IMG/VR virus record: IMGVR_UViG_3300042549_003898
Coordinates: 1-42,961 of that record
From: a virus
Reading direction: 5' to 3' (one strand)
Length of the DNA stretch: 42,961 nucleotides
Shown here: positions 165 to 42,961 of the stretch, piece by piece
How positions within the stretch are numbered: position 1 is the stretch's first letter
Layout of the letters: each line of letters starts with the position of its first letter
Notes under the pieces: generated by a model
Database searches by the model: none
What the model was told of the DNA's origin: nothing
What the model saw: the letters and a program-made list of their open reading frames with translations, nothing else
Made by a program: the position numbers and the translations under genes

Positions 165-2408
165 TTATTTGGTTAGCCGATATTTTTTAACCTCTTTCTT
201 GTTTGTTGGGTTGGTTGTTATCATTTCCTCAACCGCCCCAGCTTGCACCATCGCTGAAAGTATCTGCTCAACCTGTTCCCGCTTGTGTGGCCTGCAGCGG
301 TTAACTAAAACGCCCATTGTTTCGGCATGGTCAACGCTGATAAGGTTTTGTATCTTGGCGGCAATGCTGTTACCTGGATCTTCTTTTTCAGCCATGTTTG
401 AGAATGCCAGTTTCATTTTGCGTTCAATATCAGCCTTGGCTAATGCGTAAGCCCATCGGACGTGCTCAACCGTTCTGACGCGCTCTGGAATGGCTAGAAT
501 CAAACTAATCTTTGCGGCAAGCTCATAGCCGCGTCTTGGAATTGCTTCAAGCCCTGTGGTTCCTCGCGCATCCTCTGCCATCTTCCAGAAAGCATGGTAA
601 ACATCATCAAGGGCGTTCAATGCCTCATCTGTGCTTGTGATGCGAGTTTTGTCTCCATAGTATTCAACTCGGTCTGGTTTTTCTGTGCTACCTGGTGAAT
701 ACAGATTCGCAAGCGTTGCCTGTATGCCAATAGGTAATGGCTGGCGCTTGAACTTTTCTTTTCTCTTTGGGTTGCTGTCTTGATCTTCAAATATCAGCGC
801 CCGACTAATAAAGCCGTTTGTGGCCTGCTCAAAATCCACTAGGTCGTTAAAGGTTACTGGAGTAGTCCATCCTATGATTGAAAGAAATGGGCGCTCCAAG
901 CCGCTGTCTATATTGTCCAAAGCATGTTTAATTTGCTCTGATCGTCTTAGCTGCTTTCCGCCTTTATCGCGTCCTTCATCAATCATTTTCATAACTGCTG
1001 CAAGTTCTGACTGTAGCTCCTTTCTCAGATCGTCTTTAACGTCACCAGATACGAGCATGAAACCGTTTGCTTTGCTGTAGGCTGACATTACCAAGCCTAT
1101 GACGCCCTCAAGATATGCAGCGCCACCGCGAGCAGTGGCAGACTTTATTTTTCTGAGAACCAAACCCAGTTCATCGATTGCATAATAGGCGGCTTGGTGC
1201 CTGACTAAGTTTCTGATAATTTCCTGCTCTGACTTGATGCCGCCATGGACAGCGCCAGAAACACCAGCAGCGCGCAAGCACTCTGCAAACGCTTGCTGAA
1301 TGGCTTCCTTACCAGTGGACGAGCTGGCAACACAGAAAGAAAATAGGTTTGTGCTAAATCCGTCTTTATCGTCTGTATTTCTAAGTCCAGCAATACAGCC
1401 AACAGCAGACAATGCAGCAGCAACTGCCATTGATTCACGAGGATAAAGGCATTGGTTGTTGATCCATTGCGTTAGCTGGCCAACAAAGCCAGGTGGTCGC
1501 TTTAAGTCTATACCGCTAATGTCTAGCGGGTTTGATTCATCATCAAAATTTGATTCATCAGGAGTGAAAGTTACAGACTCCACATATCCGTTATCTTCTG
1601 CAAAATGCTTTAGAGTTCCGAAAGTAACCGGATTTGACGACTTACCAAAGCTATGCCAGTGCCTTTCTAATTGGTGGATACCTGGATACTTGCTGCCGTT
1701 TTTGCTCCAATCGTTCCAGACGTCGAATCCGTCACCGTTTAAGGTTTGGTGGATAGCCATACCGCATGTGATCCACATATCATAACCACAGTCTGGGCTG
1801 ACAAACGAAAGGATGGTATTAACGTCAGCTATAGTTACATCCATGTAAGAGCCTGAAACGCTTGCTCTATACGTGTCTGGGCGTTTTAGCAGGTCAATCA
1901 ATACTTGAGGCGCTTCTTTTACATCATCTGGAGAGCCTTTTTTTACTTCATAATAACTGCCTGACGCATGCAAGCTTCCTGAGCCAACTACAAAGCCGCT
2001 TGATTTAAAATCAATGCCAGGATATTGGCTCAACTTTGAAACAATCGATACACCTTCAGGGGCTTTGAAGTAGATATGCAAACCGCCGCCGCCAGTTTTT
2101 ACTACAAAGCCGCTATCAGCCTCATAGTCATAAGCCATGGCTTTATAAGACTCAAAACCTCCATTGCGTGGGTCAATGTCGATAATAATATAACCGGACA
2201 CCAAGACCCCAAAGCCAGTGCTGAAGTTACCCATCGCTTCCATAACATCAAGCTGATCTTCAGACCATTCTGGCGTGTACTGCCAATTGCTGGCACATGG
2301 CTTTTTATACTTCTGCTCTGGTGGTAACTCGCTTCCGTCATGGTCGGTTGCACCGAGCAGGCCGAACACCCTAAACCCAGCGTCGATGTAATCGTATTGG
2401 TTAGCCAT
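165..2408 (-). CDS. Prim-Pol / DUF3987 primase-helicase
   Basis: This is probably the phage replication primase fused to a helicase-like ATPase, 747 aa. Residues about 5-175 look like a bifunctional primase/polymerase (Prim-Pol) domain: the metal-binding IDID at 76-79, GGGGLHIYF around 106-114 and a GSG-loop with His at 142-147. Residues about 195-275 resemble a primase C-terminal (PriCT-2) domain. From about 300 a DUF3987-type ATPase follows, with a P-loop-like ASSSTGKE at 361-368 and an acidic Walker B YAIDELG at 409-415. The start ATG overlaps the stop of the upstream HTH gene by 8 bases, so the two are probably translationally coupled. A terminator follows, then the candidate origin. No other replicative polymerase is seen, so elongation probably relies on the host. 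Confidence 0.85.
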   Translation of the reverse strand: MANQYDYIDAGFRVFGLLGATDHDGSELPPEQKYKKPCASNWQYTPEWSEDQLDVMEAMGNFSTGFGVLVSGYIIIDIDPRNGGFESYKAMAYDYEADSGFVVKTGGGGLHIYFKAPEGVSIVSKLSQYPGIDFKSSGFVVGSGSLHASGSYYEVKKGSPDDVKEAPQVLIDLLKRPDTYRASVSGSYMDVTIADVNTILSFVSPDCGYDMWITCGMAIHQTLNGDGFDVWNDWSKNGSKYPGIHQLERHWHSFGKSSNPVTFGTLKHFAEDNGYVESVTFTPDESNFDDESNPLDISGIDLKRPPGFVGQLTQWINNQCLYPRESMAVAAALSAVGCIAGLRNTDDKDGFSTNLFSFCVASSSTGKEAIQQAFAECLRAAGVSGAVHGGIKSEQEIIRNLVRHQAAYYAIDELGLVLRKIKSATARGGAAYLEGVIGLVMSAYSKANGFMLVSGDVKDDLRKELQSELAAVMKMIDEGRDKGGKQLRRSEQIKHALDNIDSGLERPFLSIIGWTTPVTFNDLVDFEQATNGFISRALIFEDQDSNPKRKEKFKRQPLPIGIQATLANLYSPGSTEKPDRVEYYGDKTRITSTDEALNALDDVYHAFWKMAEDARGTTGLEAIPRRGYELAAKISLILAIPERVRTVEHVRWAYALAKADIERKMKLAFSNMAEKEDPGNSIAAKIQNLISVDHAETMGVLVNRCRPHKREQVEQILSAMVQAGAVEEMITTNPTNKKEVKKYRLTK

Positions 2409-2580
2409 TTGCTTTCCCTTCTAAATAATCGCTGATTGTTTTTATCGTTGAGTAAGATGGAGCTTTTGCTTTTCCGTTTCTGATGTTTGAAAGCGTCTGC
2501 CTACTTAGGCCAGTTCTGTCAGCGACAACCTCCAGATTTCTATCCTTTAACATCTCTTTTATTTGTTCAATGGTTAGCAT
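2401..2580 (-). CDS. small HTH (Cro/XRE-type) DNA-binding protein
   Basis: 59 aa. The N-terminal half reads as a Cro/XRE helix-turn-helix: VVADRTGLSRQTLSNIRNG (residues 18-36) has the spacing of helix 2, turn and recognition helix 3. It sits first in the minus-strand operon with the primase and overlaps the primase start. Its own upstream region (2594-2617) has three tandem 8-bp repeats, a plausible operator for this protein. It may repress both its own operon and the divergent recombination operon. Assigning it as the repressor is inference; a Cro-like or replication-control role is equally possible. Without an integrase, lysogeny is not indicated. Confidence 0.8.
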   Translation of the reverse strand: MLTIEQIKEMLKDRNLEVVADRTGLSRQTLSNIRNGKAKAPSYSTIKTISDYLEGKANG

Positions 2581-2736: not shown

Positions 2737-3498
2737 ATGTCGCTACTGTCAACAATTAGCAAACCGCAAGACCGTTCAGTTATCGTCACCATCATCGGTG
2801 ATTCTGGTTTAGGCAAAACAACATTAGCCGCAACTTTTCCAAAGCCTATCATTATTAGAGCAGAAGATGGCTTGCAAGCCATCAAGTCTGAATCTCGTCC
2901 TGATGCGTTCCCGCTTTTAAATAAGGTGGATGCGCTGTGGGATCAGCTTAAAGCGCTTGTTACTGAACAGCATGAATATCAAACCGTTGTGATTGACTCT
3001 GTAACTGCTCTTGAGCGCCTGTTTACTCAGCATGTTATCGATAGTGATCCGAAGCAACCTCGCAGCATCAACCAAGCTCTTGGTGGTTATGGCGCAGGTT
3101 TGGCGGCTGTTGCCACAATGCACCAAAGAGTCCGTAAGGCTTGCGGAGTATTAAACGAGCGCAAAAACATGCACGTTGTTTTCGTAGCTCATGCCGATAC
3201 TGAAACAATTGAGCTTCCAGACCAAGATGCTTACACCCGCTATAACTTGCGCCTTGGCAAAAAGTCTGTTGCGCCTTATGTCGATGATTCTGACGTTGTT
3301 GGCTTCTTAAAGCTGCAAACATACACCATGGGCGATGGTGAGCGTAAAAAGGCGATCAGCGATGGTAGCCGCTTGTTAGTAACATACGCCACAGCGTCAA
3401 ATGTTAGTAAAAACCGTTTCGGTATTACTGACGACCTGCCAGTTGAAATTGGCAAAAACCCATTAGCTTCAATCATTCCATCTTTAAAAGCGGAGTAA
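2737..3498 (+). CDS. Sak4-like RecA-fold recombination ATPase
   Basis: 253 aa. The protein starts with a P-loop ATPase core: Walker A GDSGLGKT at 21-28 and Walker B VVIDS at 84-88, with a later VVFVAHAD segment typical of phage AAA_24/Sak4 ATPases. Family members act as single-strand annealing or RecA-like recombinases with a partner SSB. Here the next gene is SSB-like and the one after is a YqaJ exonuclease, which together form a classic phage recombination cassette. It is first in the operon with an AGGAGG ribosome-binding site. Family assignment rests on motifs and context. Confidence 0.85.
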   Translation: MSLLSTISKPQDRSVIVTIIGDSGLGKTTLAATFPKPIIIRAEDGLQAIKSESRPDAFPLLNKVDALWDQLKALVTEQHEYQTVVIDSVTALERLFTQHVIDSDPKQPRSINQALGGYGAGLAAVATMHQRVRKACGVLNERKNMHVVFVAHADTETIELPDQDAYTRYNLRLGKKSVAPYVDDSDVVGFLKLQTYTMGDGERKKAISDGSRLLVTYATASNVSKNRFGITDDLPVEIGKNPLASIIPSLKAE

Positions 3499-18642: not shown

Positions 18643-19871
18643 AAGCCGTATTCCTTCAGAATGTCGGATTCGTTACGCGCTGCTGGTGTTTGCTGCTGGG
18701 CTGGAGCCTGCTTACCACCAATCGACTTTTCAAGCTTCTGTGAAATGTCAGACAGCCTAGCTCTTACCGCTTGCTCTGAGCCTTTAATGCCTTTCTCTGA
18801 CACGTTTAGGCCGGAAGACAAATCTCGCAACATCTTAATGTCTGTTTCTGACAGTACGCCGCTCATCAACTTTAAATTGTCAGCCGTTAGCAATGCCAGC
18901 AGCTGGTTGGCTTGGTTGATGATGTCTTGTGATTCTGGGTTGAATGTAGGCGTCATTGCGGCAATGCCTGTCACGCTGCCAAGGTTTGCATTGTTAGCGA
19001 GAGACTTGGTTAGCGCTAGAGCCTCTTGACTTGCCTGCATAGCCTTCTGCTTTTGCGTCTCAGCGTCTGCAATCGTTTGCTGACCTTTGGCCACTGCTTG
19101 CTGCTCTTGCTGCAGCTGCGCACCACCGGTAGCGGTCTGCTCAACAGCGCCAATCTTTGCAGCTTCACGAGCGCCGAGAATTGGGTTAAGACCCTGCTCC
19201 ATGCTCAATCTAGCCTCGCCAGCGCCAGCGCCACGAGCGAATGAGCCTGAGTATGGGTCAATGTTTCGCTTAATTAATTCCGCCCGCTTAGTGTCGCCAG
19301 CTGCCAAGGCTTGGTCGTATAGAGACAAGTTTTGACCAAGCGCTGTACTGCCTTGCATCTGACTAGGGTCATCAGGGAACACGCCAGCAGTGCGAAGCGT
19401 CTTAACCAATCCAGTTAAAGCATCCGCTCGCTGTGCGCCTTGCAAGTTTTTGATGCCCTGCAACGATTCAAATATGCCATCTGATTGACCCTTAAACACG
19501 TTTGAAGCTTCATCAATCAGCTTGTCCTGCACTTTAGGGTTGTCCTGCATGATAGCGCCAAGCATTGGCATGGCTGCTGTTTGCAGCTTTTGCATGCCGT
19601 ATTTCTGCTTGAGCATGTCCATTTCTTGCGCTTGAGCATCTAGCTGCTGACTACCCTGCTTGAGGTTCATCAACTGCTGAGCCGCCGCAGGGTCTTGCGC
19701 CATTAGCTGCTGAATGACTGCGTTTGCATCTTCACCTGCATTGATGCGAGCTTGGGCGTCTTGCAAGGCGGATTTGCTGCGCGACTGATTAATCATGCCG
19801 CCAAGCGCTTGACCTGCACGTAAGCCACCTTCAAATGATCGGCCTGTAATTGGGATTGATGGATCAAGCAT
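18639..19871 (-). CDS. DNA ejection protein, gp20-like by position
   Basis: 410 aa. Rich in Ala and Gln with extended helices (coiled-coil potential about 225-280). Overlaps both neighbours by 4-8 bases. Second of the three ejection-type genes. Composition and order resemble P22 gp20. No catalytic motif. Confidence 0.7.
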   Translation of the reverse strand: MLDPSIPITGRSFEGGLRAGQALGGMINQSRSKSALQDAQARINAGEDANAVIQQLMAQDPAAAQQLMNLKQGSQQLDAQAQEMDMLKQKYGMQKLQTAAMPMLGAIMQDNPKVQDKLIDEASNVFKGQSDGIFESLQGIKNLQGAQRADALTGLVKTLRTAGVFPDDPSQMQGSTALGQNLSLYDQALAAGDTKRAELIKRNIDPYSGSFARGAGAGEARLSMEQGLNPILGAREAAKIGAVEQTATGGAQLQQEQQAVAKGQQTIADAETQKQKAMQASQEALALTKSLANNANLGSVTGIAAMTPTFNPESQDIINQANQLLALLTADNLKLMSGVLSETDIKMLRDLSSGLNVSEKGIKGSEQAVRARLSDISQKLEKSIGGKQAPAQQQTPAARNESDILKEYGL

Positions 19872-26964: not shown

Positions 26965-27840
26965 TTAATCGGGTAATTTCAAAAAGCCTTTGTCGTAAAG
27001 TGCATTGAAGCAATCTTCGACTGTGCCATAAGCCGTCTTATGCACTTTGATGGCAGCATCAACAACCTTCTGGCGCTCGGCTTTGGCTTTTCGGTCGTGG
27101 TCTAGTGGGCGGAATAAAACATTTTGAATCGCCTGCTTTTCTTTGTGGCTGCATTGATTGGTGACGCAAATGATTTCACCGTGAATAAAATCAATGGTGC
27201 AGCGCTTCCAGCTTGCTTTTGTCGGCTTCGGCGGCATCCACTCACACTCAACGCCAACAGGCGGCAACCGCAAAGACTTTTGTGTTTCATAGCAATACCA
27301 GCCCGACTCACCACCAGAACCGCCACCAATATCATTGATAAAGCCGCCACCGCCGAAACCTGTCGCAACTACTTTATATTCTGGAGTAGGCACATTCCAA
27401 GTTATAACCTCGGAAGGTTTAGGCGCTACGGCAACCAAATAGCTCGTATCCGCTGGCTTGTGGCGTTGGTCGGTGATTTTGAATTTAACACAAACATTCC
27501 AGCTCCATTTTGCCAACTCAGCATCTGATAGCTGACCAATTTTATACAGCTTCGATTCTACACTTACAACAACATCATCCGCCAACTCTGGCCGCTTGCC
27601 GTCAGTGGCATATTCGATTCCCCAACGATAACCATTGACATAGCCAAGCTCTTTGGCTCGTTGTTGGAATTGCTCGGCAGAGCCAACAATCCATCCGCGA
27701 TTAGATTCAAAATTGCAGACGCAAACATTTTTATCTGCCATGAAGATGTCACCATCTTTTGCAGGGGATTTTAGCGCTTCAGGTAGCCGCCCGTTAAGCT
27801 CAATAATTACGTCATCTAGAGTTTTCATTTTCATTTTCAT
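26965..27840 (-). CDS. hypothetical protein, 291 aa
   Basis: Starts MKMKMK; the first ATG is kept although three alternate Met codons exist. It contains a Gly-rich middle (GFGGGGFINDIGGGSGGESG, about 155-174) and Cys/Trp-rich segments, with conserved-looking GWYCYETQ and ECEWMPP. Similar proteins are seen in enteric phages without known function. It has its own palindrome-bearing promoter (27867-27894), unlike its neighbours. Confidence 0.65.
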   Translation of the reverse strand: MKMKMKTLDDVIIELNGRLPEALKSPAKDGDIFMADKNVCVCNFESNRGWIVGSAEQFQQRAKELGYVNGYRWGIEYATDGKRPELADDVVVSVESKLYKIGQLSDAELAKWSWNVCVKFKITDQRHKPADTSYLVAVAPKPSEVITWNVPTPEYKVVATGFGGGGFINDIGGGSGGESGWYCYETQKSLRLPPVGVECEWMPPKPTKASWKRCTIDFIHGEIICVTNQCSHKEKQAIQNVLFRPLDHDRKAKAERQKVVDAAIKVHKTAYGTVEDCFNALYDKGFLKLPD

Positions 27841-27866: not shown

Positions 27867-27894
27867 AATATAGCATAACTAATTATGCAGTCAA
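27867..27894 (-). promoter_or_regulatory. promoter with 16-bp palindromic operator in the spacer
   Basis: TTGACT (27889-27894), then the near-perfect palindrome GCATAATTAGTTATGC (27873-27888), then TATATT (27867-27872) read on minus. The palindrome fills the whole 16-base spacer, so a bound dimer would block RNA polymerase. Nearly the same element lies at 42596-42623. It drives the 291-aa gene. Confidence 0.7.
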
Positions 27895-27903
27895 CTAGCG
27901 CAC

Positions 27904-27932
27904 AAAAGAAAAAGCCACCCGCTAAGGTGGCC
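27904..27932 (-). terminator. Rho-independent terminator (minus)
   Basis: GCCACC (27914-27919) pairs with GGTGGC (27926-27931), followed on minus by TTTTTCTTTT. It ends whatever is transcribed from the 27933-28213 region, which holds no standard gene. Confidence 0.8.
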
Positions 27933-32618: not shown

Positions 32619-33533
32619 TTACCCTCTTGAATTCTTGACTGCTTTTAGAAAAGCTTTCTTGTCGCCTTTAAACATCATATCGCCGAATGAATTCCACTCG
32701 GACAACTCCGACTTGCTCAAGTCAGTCCACGTCAAGTCGCCGGACACTTTGCCAGATGGCTTGCTGTCGGTGATTGCTGGCTTGTCGCGATTTGGGTTGA
32801 CTGGCGCTTTTGGTGGGAACTTCTGCGCAATCTCACCTTGCAAATACTCAAGGCGCTGATTGACGGTCATGTTTGGCGTTGCGAGTAATTGCGCGTATAG
32901 ATTCTGCGCAAACACTGCTTTGCCGTACTCTGGGCTTGTCGGGTCTTTGACATTAATCCATGGGTTTTCACGCTCGAACTGCGCTTCAACTGCCAGCTCA
33001 TCCTCTGATGGCCCTTGCTGCTGTGGCTGCTGAATCTGCTGTTGCAAGTTCATCTGGCTGATTGCGTTATTGGTCAGCGCCTGCTCGGCTTTCTGTACGC
33101 CATCCCAATCACCATACTGAACAGCGTTGCGCTTGGCTTCCATTAGCTCGGCGTTTTGCTGCTGCAACTGCTGGATTTGCATTTGCGCTTGCGCTTGCAC
33201 GTACTTCTTGACGTTATCAACATCAGCTTTGAACGTCTTTTGCAGCGCTTCAAACTCACGCGCCTTGCTGATTAACGTGCCTTTTTCGTTGAAGTGCTTA
33301 GCGCTTACCCACTCGTCAGGGTCTTTGCCTTGCGCCACCCATTCAGCCTTAGACGTCCAGCCGCGTTGCGAAGCTTTCGCTTCTTCTTCGTTAACTTCTG
33401 GCTTAGCTTCTGGCTCGGGCGTTACATCTTCAGCGACCGGCTCAGGCGTATTGTCAACAACCTCAACCGGCTCAGGCTCTGCACTAAACACAGAGTTAAA
33501 CGCATCCTCGTTAAAATGCACTTCATCAGTCAT
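32619..33533 (-). CDS. capsid scaffold protein candidate
   Basis: 304 aa. Very acidic Pro/Glu N-terminus (about 15-55), a central Gln-rich coiled coil (about 95-165) and a short basic C-terminus ending FLKAVKNSRG, where coat proteins typically bind scaffold. Position directly before the head genes agrees. It overlaps the GroES-like gene by eight bases. No protease motif is seen. Confidence 0.75.
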   Translation of the reverse strand: MTDEVHFNEDAFNSVFSAEPEPVEVVDNTPEPVAEDVTPEPEAKPEVNEEEAKASQRGWTSKAEWVAQGKDPDEWVSAKHFNEKGTLISKAREFEALQKTFKADVDNVKKYVQAQAQMQIQQLQQQNAELMEAKRNAVQYGDWDGVQKAEQALTNNAISQMNLQQQIQQPQQQGPSEDELAVEAQFERENPWINVKDPTSPEYGKAVFAQNLYAQLLATPNMTVNQRLEYLQGEIAQKFPPKAPVNPNRDKPAITDSKPSGKVSGDLTWTDLSKSELSEWNSFGDMMFKGDKKAFLKAVKNSRG

Positions 33534-33849
33534 TGGACACCACCGCTATGATTTTCTGGTCTGTTACTAGGCGCAGCTTGGTATCTTTACCTGCTGACAC
33601 TGGGCGCTTACCGTCATACGTGGCAAACTCTACTTTGTCGCCCACTTTGACACCCCATTCTTCGGCTGAGTTACAGCCGCATTGAAGCCCTTTGAATGCG
33701 CGTGGTCCAATATCAACTACTGTGCCGATGCACTGCGCTTCTTCGAGCCGCTTTTCGTCTTTTTGGCTGGCCATGATGATGCCGCCTTCTGACTTTAGCG
33801 TGACTTCTTCAGTCTCGATAAGGACGTAATATCCTGTGGCTTTAATCAT
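33526..33849 (-). CDS. phage-encoded GroES-like co-chaperonin
   Basis: 107 aa. The sequence reads across the whole GroES fold: N-terminal strand YYVLIETEEV, mobile loop TLKSEGGIIMAS (17-28) that parallels GroES TKSAGGIVLTGS, GTVVDIGPR (42-50), VKVGDKVEFATYDG (67-80) and C-terminal KIIAVV (99-104). The loop keeps the Gly-Gly-Ile-hydrophobic tip that docks into GroEL. Like T4 gp31 it probably caps host GroEL to fold the coat protein; here it sits just before scaffold and coat. Three Cys (40, 57, 59) around an extra loop are not in bacterial GroES. Gene order and motif make this call strong. Confidence 0.88.
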   Translation of the reverse strand: MIKATGYYVLIETEEVTLKSEGGIIMASQKDEKRLEEAQCIGTVVDIGPRAFKGLQCGCNSAEEWGVKVGDKVEFATYDGKRPVSAGKDTKLRLVTDQKIIAVVSND

Positions 33850-40863: not shown

Positions 40864-41085
40864 TCATTCAGATAAAAATAATTTCTCAGTCAAGCTGATA
40901 ATCCTCTGCCTCTCACTAGGACTAGCCGCAATCAAATCTAGGCAAGCCATTTTAGTATGCGGGTCTTGCGCCTGTGTCATCATCCTTGCAGCCGTTTGGA
41001 TGATTGCCGCTTGCTGTGGGCGCTTGTCGGCGATTGCTAAGCGGCGTGCAAGCGCTATGTTTAGCGCTTCGGTGTTGGTTGTCAT
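40864..41085 (-). CDS. hypothetical protein, 73 aa
   Basis: Helical (TEALNIALARRLAIADKRPQ, CLDLIAASPSERQRIISL). Starts in an ATGA overlap with the methyltransferase-like gene. Last gene of the rightmost operon before the promoter gap. Confidence 0.6.
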   Translation of the reverse strand: MTTNTEALNIALARRLAIADKRPQQAAIIQTAARMMTQAQDPHTKMACLDLIAASPSERQRIISLTEKLFLSE

Positions 41086-41726
41086 TTATCCGCTCCGTAC
41101 ATCTCAAAAACAGCCCTTGCAAAACCACGAGGCGTTGCGCTTCTAAAGTTCGCCCTATCTGGACCAGGTGGCGCTTTATGAATCCTGTCATCAGGCGAGC
41201 CTAGCGACTTATTAATAAACGCAGGCGGCAACACAAAACCACCGCCCGACCATAAGCAGGTTTTTTTTGTGTAGTTATCATCCGTGCAGTATCCGGTGTA
41301 ATCGCAAGGATTGAATGACCATTGCGGCTTGCTAAATATTGAGCTGAATACGCTTACCGGATTTTCAAAGAACCAAGGGCAACCGCAAAGCTCACCAATA
41401 GTTCGACATTGTTCAGCAACCAGCGCTGCTTTAGCCTGGAAAAACTTGTCTTGCTCTGCCTTGGCTGCAAACCATCGTGACCCACTCACCGCCACGTCAG
41501 TGCATGGCGGGAAACCAGCAACAAACACAACTTTTTCAGTTCGCATAATTTCGCCAATGCGCGGCATCGCATCAAGCATTGTTTTATTAATCCGCTCAAC
41601 CTTGCCGTCATCTGTGTGCGCCTGGTGCTGTGGGTCAACCATAACAACTCGATAGCCAGCATCAACCCAATCAGCGCCCATTGCATCGGTCAGGTTGCAT
41701 AGCAGCAATACGGTTCCTTTGCTCAT
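41082..41726 (-). CDS. C5-cytosine methyltransferase-like protein
   Basis: 214 aa. Motif I-like GTVLLLCNLTDAMG (4-17), AGYRVVMVD, motif IV FPPCTDVAVSG with the catalytic-type Cys75, and a motif-VI-like FENP (120-123; ENV is usual). A late YTKKTCLWSGGGFVLPP completes a phage family annotated as DNA cytosine methylases. It lacks a clear target-recognition domain and motif VIII, so activity and specificity are unsure. Start 41726 chosen at an ATGA overlap. The second methyltransferase in the genome. Confidence 0.75.
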   Translation of the reverse strand: MSKGTVLLLCNLTDAMGADWVDAGYRVVMVDPQHQAHTDDGKVERINKTMLDAMPRIGEIMRTEKVVFVAGFPPCTDVAVSGSRWFAAKAEQDKFFQAKAALVAEQCRTIGELCGCPWFFENPVSVFSSIFSKPQWSFNPCDYTGYCTDDNYTKKTCLWSGGGFVLPPAFINKSLGSPDDRIHKAPPGPDRANFRSATPRGFARAVFEMYGADK

Positions 41727-42013
41727 TCCTGGCACCCTTGCAATCTCTGAGTAGCCAAAGACTCAGCATGCCTGGTCAGCCAATCATTCGCGTACTGGCG
41801 CAAGATAGCACCGCAATCGGCGCCTGTTTTAAACGCCTCAGAAATCGCTGTGGTGCATTTTTCATCGAAGCTGCTGTCTAGCTCTATTTCATCCAGATAG
41901 TCGCTTAGAATCAATCCTGCGCGTATTTGAGCTGCAAGAGCAGCTATCTTTGCGTCCTGCTCTGCTTTTTGCTCGGCTGCTAGGTCTGTTTGTTTCCAAT
42001 CATCGTAAGCCAT
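41723..42013 (-). CDS. hypothetical protein, 96 aa
   Basis: Charged helical N-terminus (AAEQKAEQDAKIAALAAQIR), then SFDEKCTTAISEAFKTGADCG and WLTRHAESLATQ. Phage accessory type, no known function. Its stop overlaps the methyltransferase-like start. Confidence 0.6.
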   Translation of the reverse strand: MAYDDWKQTDLAAEQKAEQDAKIAALAAQIRAGLILSDYLDEIELDSSFDEKCTTAISEAFKTGADCGAILRQYANDWLTRHAESLATQRLQGCQE

Positions 42014-42014
42014 A

Positions 42015-42173
42015 TTATGCCTCGTTCAATCTAAAATACCCTTTCGGGCAAATAAACAACTCACCATTCTTCCGCATACGCTGCGCTATCTCGCGTGAAT
42101 TTGGTCGCAAGTCGCTTAGCTTCACAAAGCCATTGCGGATGTCTTGTTTTAGTTTGTAGAGCAATCCGGTCAT
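42015..42173 (-). CDS. hypothetical protein, 52 aa
   Basis: ATG 42173 in an ATGA overlap with the HTH gene. MTGLLYKLKQDIRNGFV with LSDLRPNSREIAQRMRKNG resembles a small wHTH-like phage protein. An in-frame ATG at 42212 lies inside the HTH gene and is less likely. Confidence 0.55.
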   Translation of the reverse strand: MTGLLYKLKQDIRNGFVKLSDLRPNSREIAQRMRKNGELFICPKGYFRLNEA

Positions 42174-42373
42174 TTCTTTCTCCCAAATTCTTCCAAAAAG
42201 TTCATTAACCATTCAATACTGAAAAGCTCGCTTTGGTTCCCAGCTAACGACGTGATTCGCTGTCTGCTCACTCCAACTTTGTCTGCCGCCTGCTGATGGG
42301 TTAACCCCCTATCAATGATGAGCTGTTGTGCTTCTGCCATTAGGTCTTGTTTTAGCTGTTGGGCTTTGTTCAT
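42170..42373 (-). CDS. HTH (XRE-like) regulator, 67 aa
   Basis: DRGLTHQQAADKVGVSRQRITSLAGN (residues about 21-46) is a clear helix-turn-helix, and FSIEWLMNFLEEFGRKK matches the C-terminal helix of HigA-like/XRE domains. Start 42373 chosen at the ATGA overlap. As the second gene behind the palindromic promoter (42596-42623) it is a good candidate for the protein that binds that palindrome; that is inference. No toxin partner is apparent. Confidence 0.75.
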   Translation of the reverse strand: MNKAQQLKQDLMAEAQQLIIDRGLTHQQAADKVGVSRQRITSLAGNQSELFSIEWLMNFLEEFGRKK

Positions 42374-42549
42374 TGTTGCTCCGGTGCTGGTATTTGATTT
42401 GCTGTAAAGTCGGTTAATTTTGCATCTCGCCATTTTAACCTGCTCATTCCGCCATGCGGCATGTCTTCGTAATAGCTGACTTCAACTTGCAGAATTAATT
42501 TACCAAACAAGCTAGTTCTGTACCTTGTCTTTCCTGTTGCTTTTTCCAT
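42370..42549 (-). CDS. hypothetical protein, 59 aa
   Basis: AAGGAG lies seven bases before the ATG. The stop overlaps the HTH gene start. The basic N-terminus (KATGKTRYRTS) is followed by beta strands (LFGKLILQVEVSYY). No family recognised. First gene of the rightmost minus-strand operon. Confidence 0.65.
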   Translation of the reverse strand: MEKATGKTRYRTSLFGKLILQVEVSYYEDMPHGGMSRLKWRDAKLTDFTANQIPAPEQQ

Positions 42550-42595
42550 TCCTTCACTCCTTCTACGTTCGGCGTTGTGCCGTGTTGGTGATTCA

Positions 42596-42623
42596 AATAT
42601 AGCATAATTAATTATGCTTGCAA
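42596..42623 (-). promoter_or_regulatory. promoter with perfect 16-bp palindromic operator
   Basis: TTGCAA (42618-42623), the perfect palindrome GCATAATTAATTATGC (42602-42617) and TATATT (42596-42601) read on minus. The palindrome exactly fills the 16-base spacer. It matches 27867-27894 at 15 of 16 palindrome positions and in the flanking -10. It drives the rightmost accessory operon. Confidence 0.75.
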
Positions 42624-42780
42624 TAGTTTTTGTGCATGAATTTGCGACTTAGCGAGATAGTGGGAAATAGCAAAACAAAACTAAGTACTTTTTCCTTGTA
42701 AATCAATGAATTAGAGAGATAGATATATATCTTTATATTTATATTTATAAATACATAAAAATAACGTCTATATCTAGATT

Positions 42781-42796
42781 ACTAAGTAACTAAGAC
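42781..42796. repeat. degenerate 8-bp iteron pair
   Basis: ACTAAGTA (42781-42788) and ACTAAGAC (42789-42796) follow the 8-bp phase and share CTAAG with the triple repeat 41 bases further on. They sit between the AT-rich stretch and the perfect repeats. Confidence 0.5.
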
Positions 42797-42834
42797 GATA
42801 TAAGAAACTCCATTAATCTATCTGTTTATCTACC

Positions 42835-42961
42835 TAGCTAAGTCGCTAAGTCGCTAAGTCGCTCATTTTCTATTTATAAATCAATGAGTTGCGAAATAGT
42901 GACGCATTAACTAACTCGTTAAGTCATTGATTTATAAAGAAACTGTTTTTAGCGCAAAAAA
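42835..42961. repeat. 127-bp terminal direct repeat, right copy
   Basis: Identical to bases 1-127. See the left copy: the two ends overlap, so the genome should be read as circular with base 42834 followed by base 1. Confidence 0.95.

Follow-up and report, generated by a model that had tools for sequence, protein, structure and literature searches.

Several described systems resemble the arrangement analysed here. At Pant of phage P22, the Arc operator is a dyad lying between the -10 and -35 elements of a phage promoter, where it blocks RNA polymerase. The present locus has a dyad in the same position, but Arc is a ribbon-helix-helix protein whereas the candidate regulator here is a helix-turn-helix (HTH) protein. 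XRE/Cro-type autorepressors, including HigA-type antitoxins (HTH_37, PF13744), likewise combine a small, operon-encoded HTH protein with a 16-18 bp palindrome in the operon promoter, and the HigA-type lineage autorepresses. The locus departs from these in that a toxin gene is absent alongside, two target promoters are situated 15 kb apart, and binding is putative. MerR-type operators are also palindromes centred in the spacer, but MerR promoters have spacers of 19-20 bp, and at 16 bp the spacers of both promoters considered here are too short; a MerR-like activation by twisting therefore does not fit and was rejected. Finally, phage morons are accessory genes, exchanged between unrelated phages, that bring a sigma-70 promoter and an upstream terminator of their own. 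They are mostly described in temperate phages, while the phage analysed here yielded no PF00589-family integrase, and the present case further differs in that two units carry the same operator-like palindrome.

The phage is represented by a complete virus record of 42,961 bases, the whole of which was analysed (the window). A 127-bp direct terminal repeat (1-127 and 42835-42961) indicates a circularly closed or redundant assembly, and the map is therefore probably circular. PHROG matches comprise structural functions (terminase, portal, head, tail and DNA-ejection proteins) and replication and recombination functions (primase, Sak4-like protein, SSB, RecE-like exonuclease and helicase). A spanin and a GroES-like co-chaperonin (33526-33849; phrog_3188, E 6.6e-14) are also encoded. 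Judged by terminase, the closest named phages (44-53% identity) are Pseudomonas phage AH02 and phages of Aeromonas and Vibrio.

An initial annotation had proposed that two distant promoters share a 16-bp palindrome located between the -35 and -10 elements, and this was borne out at both sites. Promoter A (42596-42623, minus strand) consists of a -35 element TTGCAA (42623-42618), a spacer made up of palindrome A, GCATAATTAATTATGC (42602-42617), as candidate operator, and a -10 element TATATT (42601-42596), which is an extended -10 with TGC. Promoter B (27867-27894, minus strand) has the -35 element TTGACT, palindrome B (27873-27888; GCATAATTAGTTATGC on the minus strand) as its spacer, and the -10 element TATATT. 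Both promoters, as well as the terminator-like hairpin described below, were located by a consensus scan. The spacer is 16 bp in each and is filled exactly by the 16-mer, and both sites share the context TTGNNN 5' and TATATTTGRAT 3' of it. Taking in one more base on each side, the last of the -35 and the first of the -10, turns site A into a perfect 18-bp palindrome, AGCATAATTAATTATGCT; in site B, one central pair is mismatched. A search of the window for further copies, as the annotation had suggested, yielded none with up to two mismatches; looser matches (three mismatches) occur only at 19268 and 29938, both outside such a promoter frame. With an order-2 Markov model, the expected number of exact occurrences of either 16-mer in the window is 4.4e-5. 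Pairs of 16-bp near-palindromes, identical at 15 or more of 16 positions and more than 1 kb apart, arose in 10 of 1000 simulations, in which the pairs were free to lie inside or outside promoter spacers; in 3 of 400, two or more promoter-like elements arose whose spacers were near-palindromic, whatever their sequence. Given these low frequencies, the combination of two palindromes in promoter spacers is not plausibly due to chance. Because TTATGC, the right arm, joins with TATATT to give an extended -10 (TGN-TATATT), promoter function could account for it; the left arm, GCATAA, is the one part without such an explanation and constitutes the informative half of the site.

Equivalent promoters recur in other phage records. 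L004 carries the operon-type promoter with a site identical to palindrome A, and L003, L006 and L008 carry counterparts of promoter B. These four were first found by a pattern search of IMG/VR, and their perfect arms are partly a matter of ascertainment. All have TTG, GCATAA, TTATGC and TATATT, but they differ in the latter half of the -35 and in the four central bases (TTAA, TTAG or TTCG across the relatives). Two other pattern hits were rejected, one as situated inside an apparent coding stretch (L005) and one, in the jumbo phage L009, for its divergent right arm. A palindrome-blind search with the leader sequence CACCAACACGGCACAACGC returned only L004 and L016, with the site exact in the former and partly degenerate in the latter (TTGACC-GCATAAAAACTTGTGC-TATATT, one arm intact and the right arm altered to TTGTGC). 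L016 is a different type of phage: visual inspection of its translated frames pointed to NinB/NinG-like proteins and a DnaB-like helicase. Homology between L016 and the window sets in exactly where the palindrome begins, spans the leader and then continues in a 67-aa HTH gene, the product of which is 99% identical. Among named phages, DNA similarity to the promoter regions was restricted to a terminator match (Pectobacterium phages) and a weak leader match (Klebsiella phages, E 0.5), and a literature search on the palindrome gave no relevant paper.

Promoter A drives an accessory operon. Its 5' leader, GAATCACCAACACGGCACAACGCCGAACGTAGAAGGAGTGAAGGA (42550-42595, minus strand, as are all genes of the operon), recurs in L004 and L016, yet each of the three records has another gene in first place. 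In the window this first gene encodes a 59-aa protein of unassigned function (42370-42549), and is followed by the 67-aa HTH_37 (XRE-type) protein (42170-42373; PF13744), a 65-aa protein (42015-42212) with a 75% identical counterpart in L007/L016, a 96-aa protein of unassigned function (41723-42013), to which a similar frame comes next in L016, and a DNA methyltransferase-like protein (41082-41735; phrog_757). Alternatively, both promoters might be copies of one mobile, constitutive element that arrived with accessory cassettes, having a common origin and no dedicated regulator. The conservation of promoter and leader before different first genes, the homology border of L016 exactly at the palindrome, the terminator that sets the B unit apart and the extended -10 in the right arm would all agree with this. 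It does not account for the left arm, which lacks a promoter role and yet is kept in seven of seven promoters (a count partly subject to ascertainment) despite variation in -35 and centre, nor for a related promoter, in L112, that is apparently complete without it, and we consider a constitutive element unlikely.

This last promoter belongs to a relative of the 291-aa gene that is controlled by promoter B. The homologous L010/L112 promoter, TTGACA-AGTGGCGCTTATGTGA-TACATT, has a 16-bp spacer without the left arm, and the 67-aa HTH protein was not found in its 38-kb record. In two further 291-aa relatives, L110 and L116, TGGTCNGACCA lies upstream of GGTGCTATATT, and the window palindrome is absent. 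Among 49 related records, the site is present in four short ones and the HTH gene in one (L016), while the long records have neither. The short site-bearing records are fragments of 5.7-11.9 kb, none of which spans the operon, so that the counts of co-occurrence with the HTH gene rest on the other records. Since the long records with 291-aa relatives and no HTH gene also lack the palindrome, it looks like an operator added onto a sigma-70 promoter. In the related phage G006 (L011 record, 40,829 bp), five TGGTCNGACCA palindromes occur at 3269, 8312, 8839, 12718 and 36643, four of which precede a -10-like box by about 16-20 bp; one is inside a promoter spacer (TTGCTT-AGTGGTCTGACCAGCGG-TATACT). 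This set is a parallel multi-promoter element with a different sequence.

The most likely interpretation is a phage regulon of two promoters under an XRE-type autorepressor that the phage itself encodes. At about even odds (roughly 0.5), we infer that a homodimeric DNA-binding protein, likeliest the 67-aa HTH_37 protein, has GCATAA-N4-TTATGC as its operator and would repress, rather than activate, both the accessory operon and the 291-aa gene. The homodimer would bind in the -35/-10 spacer of the two sigma-70 promoters and cover the face needed by RNA polymerase, thus repressing the operon (from 42549 leftwards) as well as the 291-aa gene. The 67-aa protein would in this way act on its own promoter by negative feedback, and shut off the 291-aa gene in parallel. 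The centres of the half-sites are 10 bp apart, i.e. one helical turn, which matches the expectation for an XRE-type HTH dimer. Against a cutoff of 27 bits, the PF13744 profile scores 35.1 bits for the 87-aa frame (42170-42433) that contains the 67-aa protein. The structure model of this protein, of modest quality (pLDDT 73, pTM 0.49), has four helices, and a Foldseek search with it gave nothing significant. Relatives of the protein occur in Pakpunavirus and Kuravirus phages, and plasmid relatives adjoin HigB/RelE-type toxins. In the window no HigB/RelE toxin gene was found beside the HTH gene, and the neighbouring 59-aa and 65-aa proteins are without a family match.

Purely by linkage, the 67-aa protein is the best candidate autorepressor. 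The palindrome overlaps the promoter of the operon that encodes it; the promoter is present in both HTH-encoding records, which represent two unrelated phages, one with a degenerate site, and the site is absent from the long relatives that lack the HTH gene. The palindromes upstream of its relatives are inconsistent, being long in three of six regions, the window included. The initial annotation had proposed both a shared dimer site at which RNA polymerase would be excluded and autoregulation by this protein. The first fits the sequence and comparative data, and the second agrees with the linkage to the promoter in two unrelated phages, but the main misfit, a changed right arm in L016 despite a 99% identical HTH protein, argues against a firm assignment. 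If the interpretation is right, this uncultured phage group offers a small regulon that can be tested directly, along with a hint as to how accessory genes dispersed among structural ones are silenced or timed. Control of this type is standard for phages and the surprise is modest. A further, rather speculative extension is that regulator and operator travel as a pair, the HTH cassette moving between unrelated phages while the operator also comes to front other accessory genes, the 291-aa family among them; a single small repressor would then serve a growing set of genes, and relatives would use other palindromes alike (TGGTCNGACCA in G006). Mobility of the site together with its regulator between unrelated phages would, if true, be the more interesting part.

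The initial annotation had also named a 59-aa HTH protein as an alternative regulator. This is encoded at 2401-2580 (minus strand) and is to be kept apart from the equally long protein at the head of the operon (42370-42549), for which no HTH match was found. It is a clear Cro/C1-type HTH protein, and an operator belonging to it, or to another HTH protein of the phage, would be conceivable. However, L004 keeps an identical site with an unrelated 79-aa regulator in the position of this gene, and the gene adjoins three repeats of its own, GACTTAGTGAGT (2594-2621), that are unlike the palindrome. The 59-aa protein probably has another target on these two grounds; it was rejected as the regulator, and we regard this assignment as very improbable. 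A 34-bp imperfect dyad, TACGAATGCGAGTACGG/CCGTAAACAAATTCGTA, is situated between divergent early promoters at 2630-2663. The GACTTAGTGAGT repeats have an 8-bp period, as do further repeats, TCGCTAAG, in AT-rich intergenic DNA around the terminal repeat (42636-42961 and 1-91); both sets may be origin iterons or operators.

The palindrome could instead be the operator of a transcription factor of the host, exploited by the phage to time or silence its accessory genes. This phage group does contain palindromes that may be of a host type: the TGGTCNGACCA set of G006 resembles the GntR/FadR-type consensus. The exact promoter pattern had no match in the genomes of 84,980 species, and a relaxed pattern gave three scattered hits (Bacillota, Clostridia and Chloroflexi records) that were judged to be due to chance or unrelated. 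The combination of promoter and palindrome is thus absent from the gammaproteobacterial genomes of the collection, in scans that require the exact promoter geometry, which argues against a host regulator, as does the presence of an HTH gene in the cassette itself. Control by a host factor is accordingly doubtful, and the phage-encoded 67-aa protein is preferred.

The second unit of the putative regulon consists of the 291-aa gene (26965-27840, minus strand), which is phrog_3483-like and of unassigned function. Besides the predicted promoter of its own, a rho-independent-terminator-like hairpin (27913-27932, minus strand) lies immediately upstream of promoter B and would set the unit apart, as in a possible moron. 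The noncoding stretch just upstream of this promoter also contains a covarying structured RNA of 80-90 nt (28138-28051, minus strand), which is not a tRNA and matches no Rfam family at gathering score. Copies are present in L008 (2479-2558), L026 (2933-3012), L011 (3297-3376), L003 (6684-6770), L006 (492-572), L010 (3721-3801) and L029 (11384-11464), the last of which was picked up by the model from outside its training set. The structure comprises three helices with 96% of cells paired, and seven pairs are changed on both sides, amounting to 19 such cells as compared to a mean of 7.6 in shuffles and at most 3 in slid controls.
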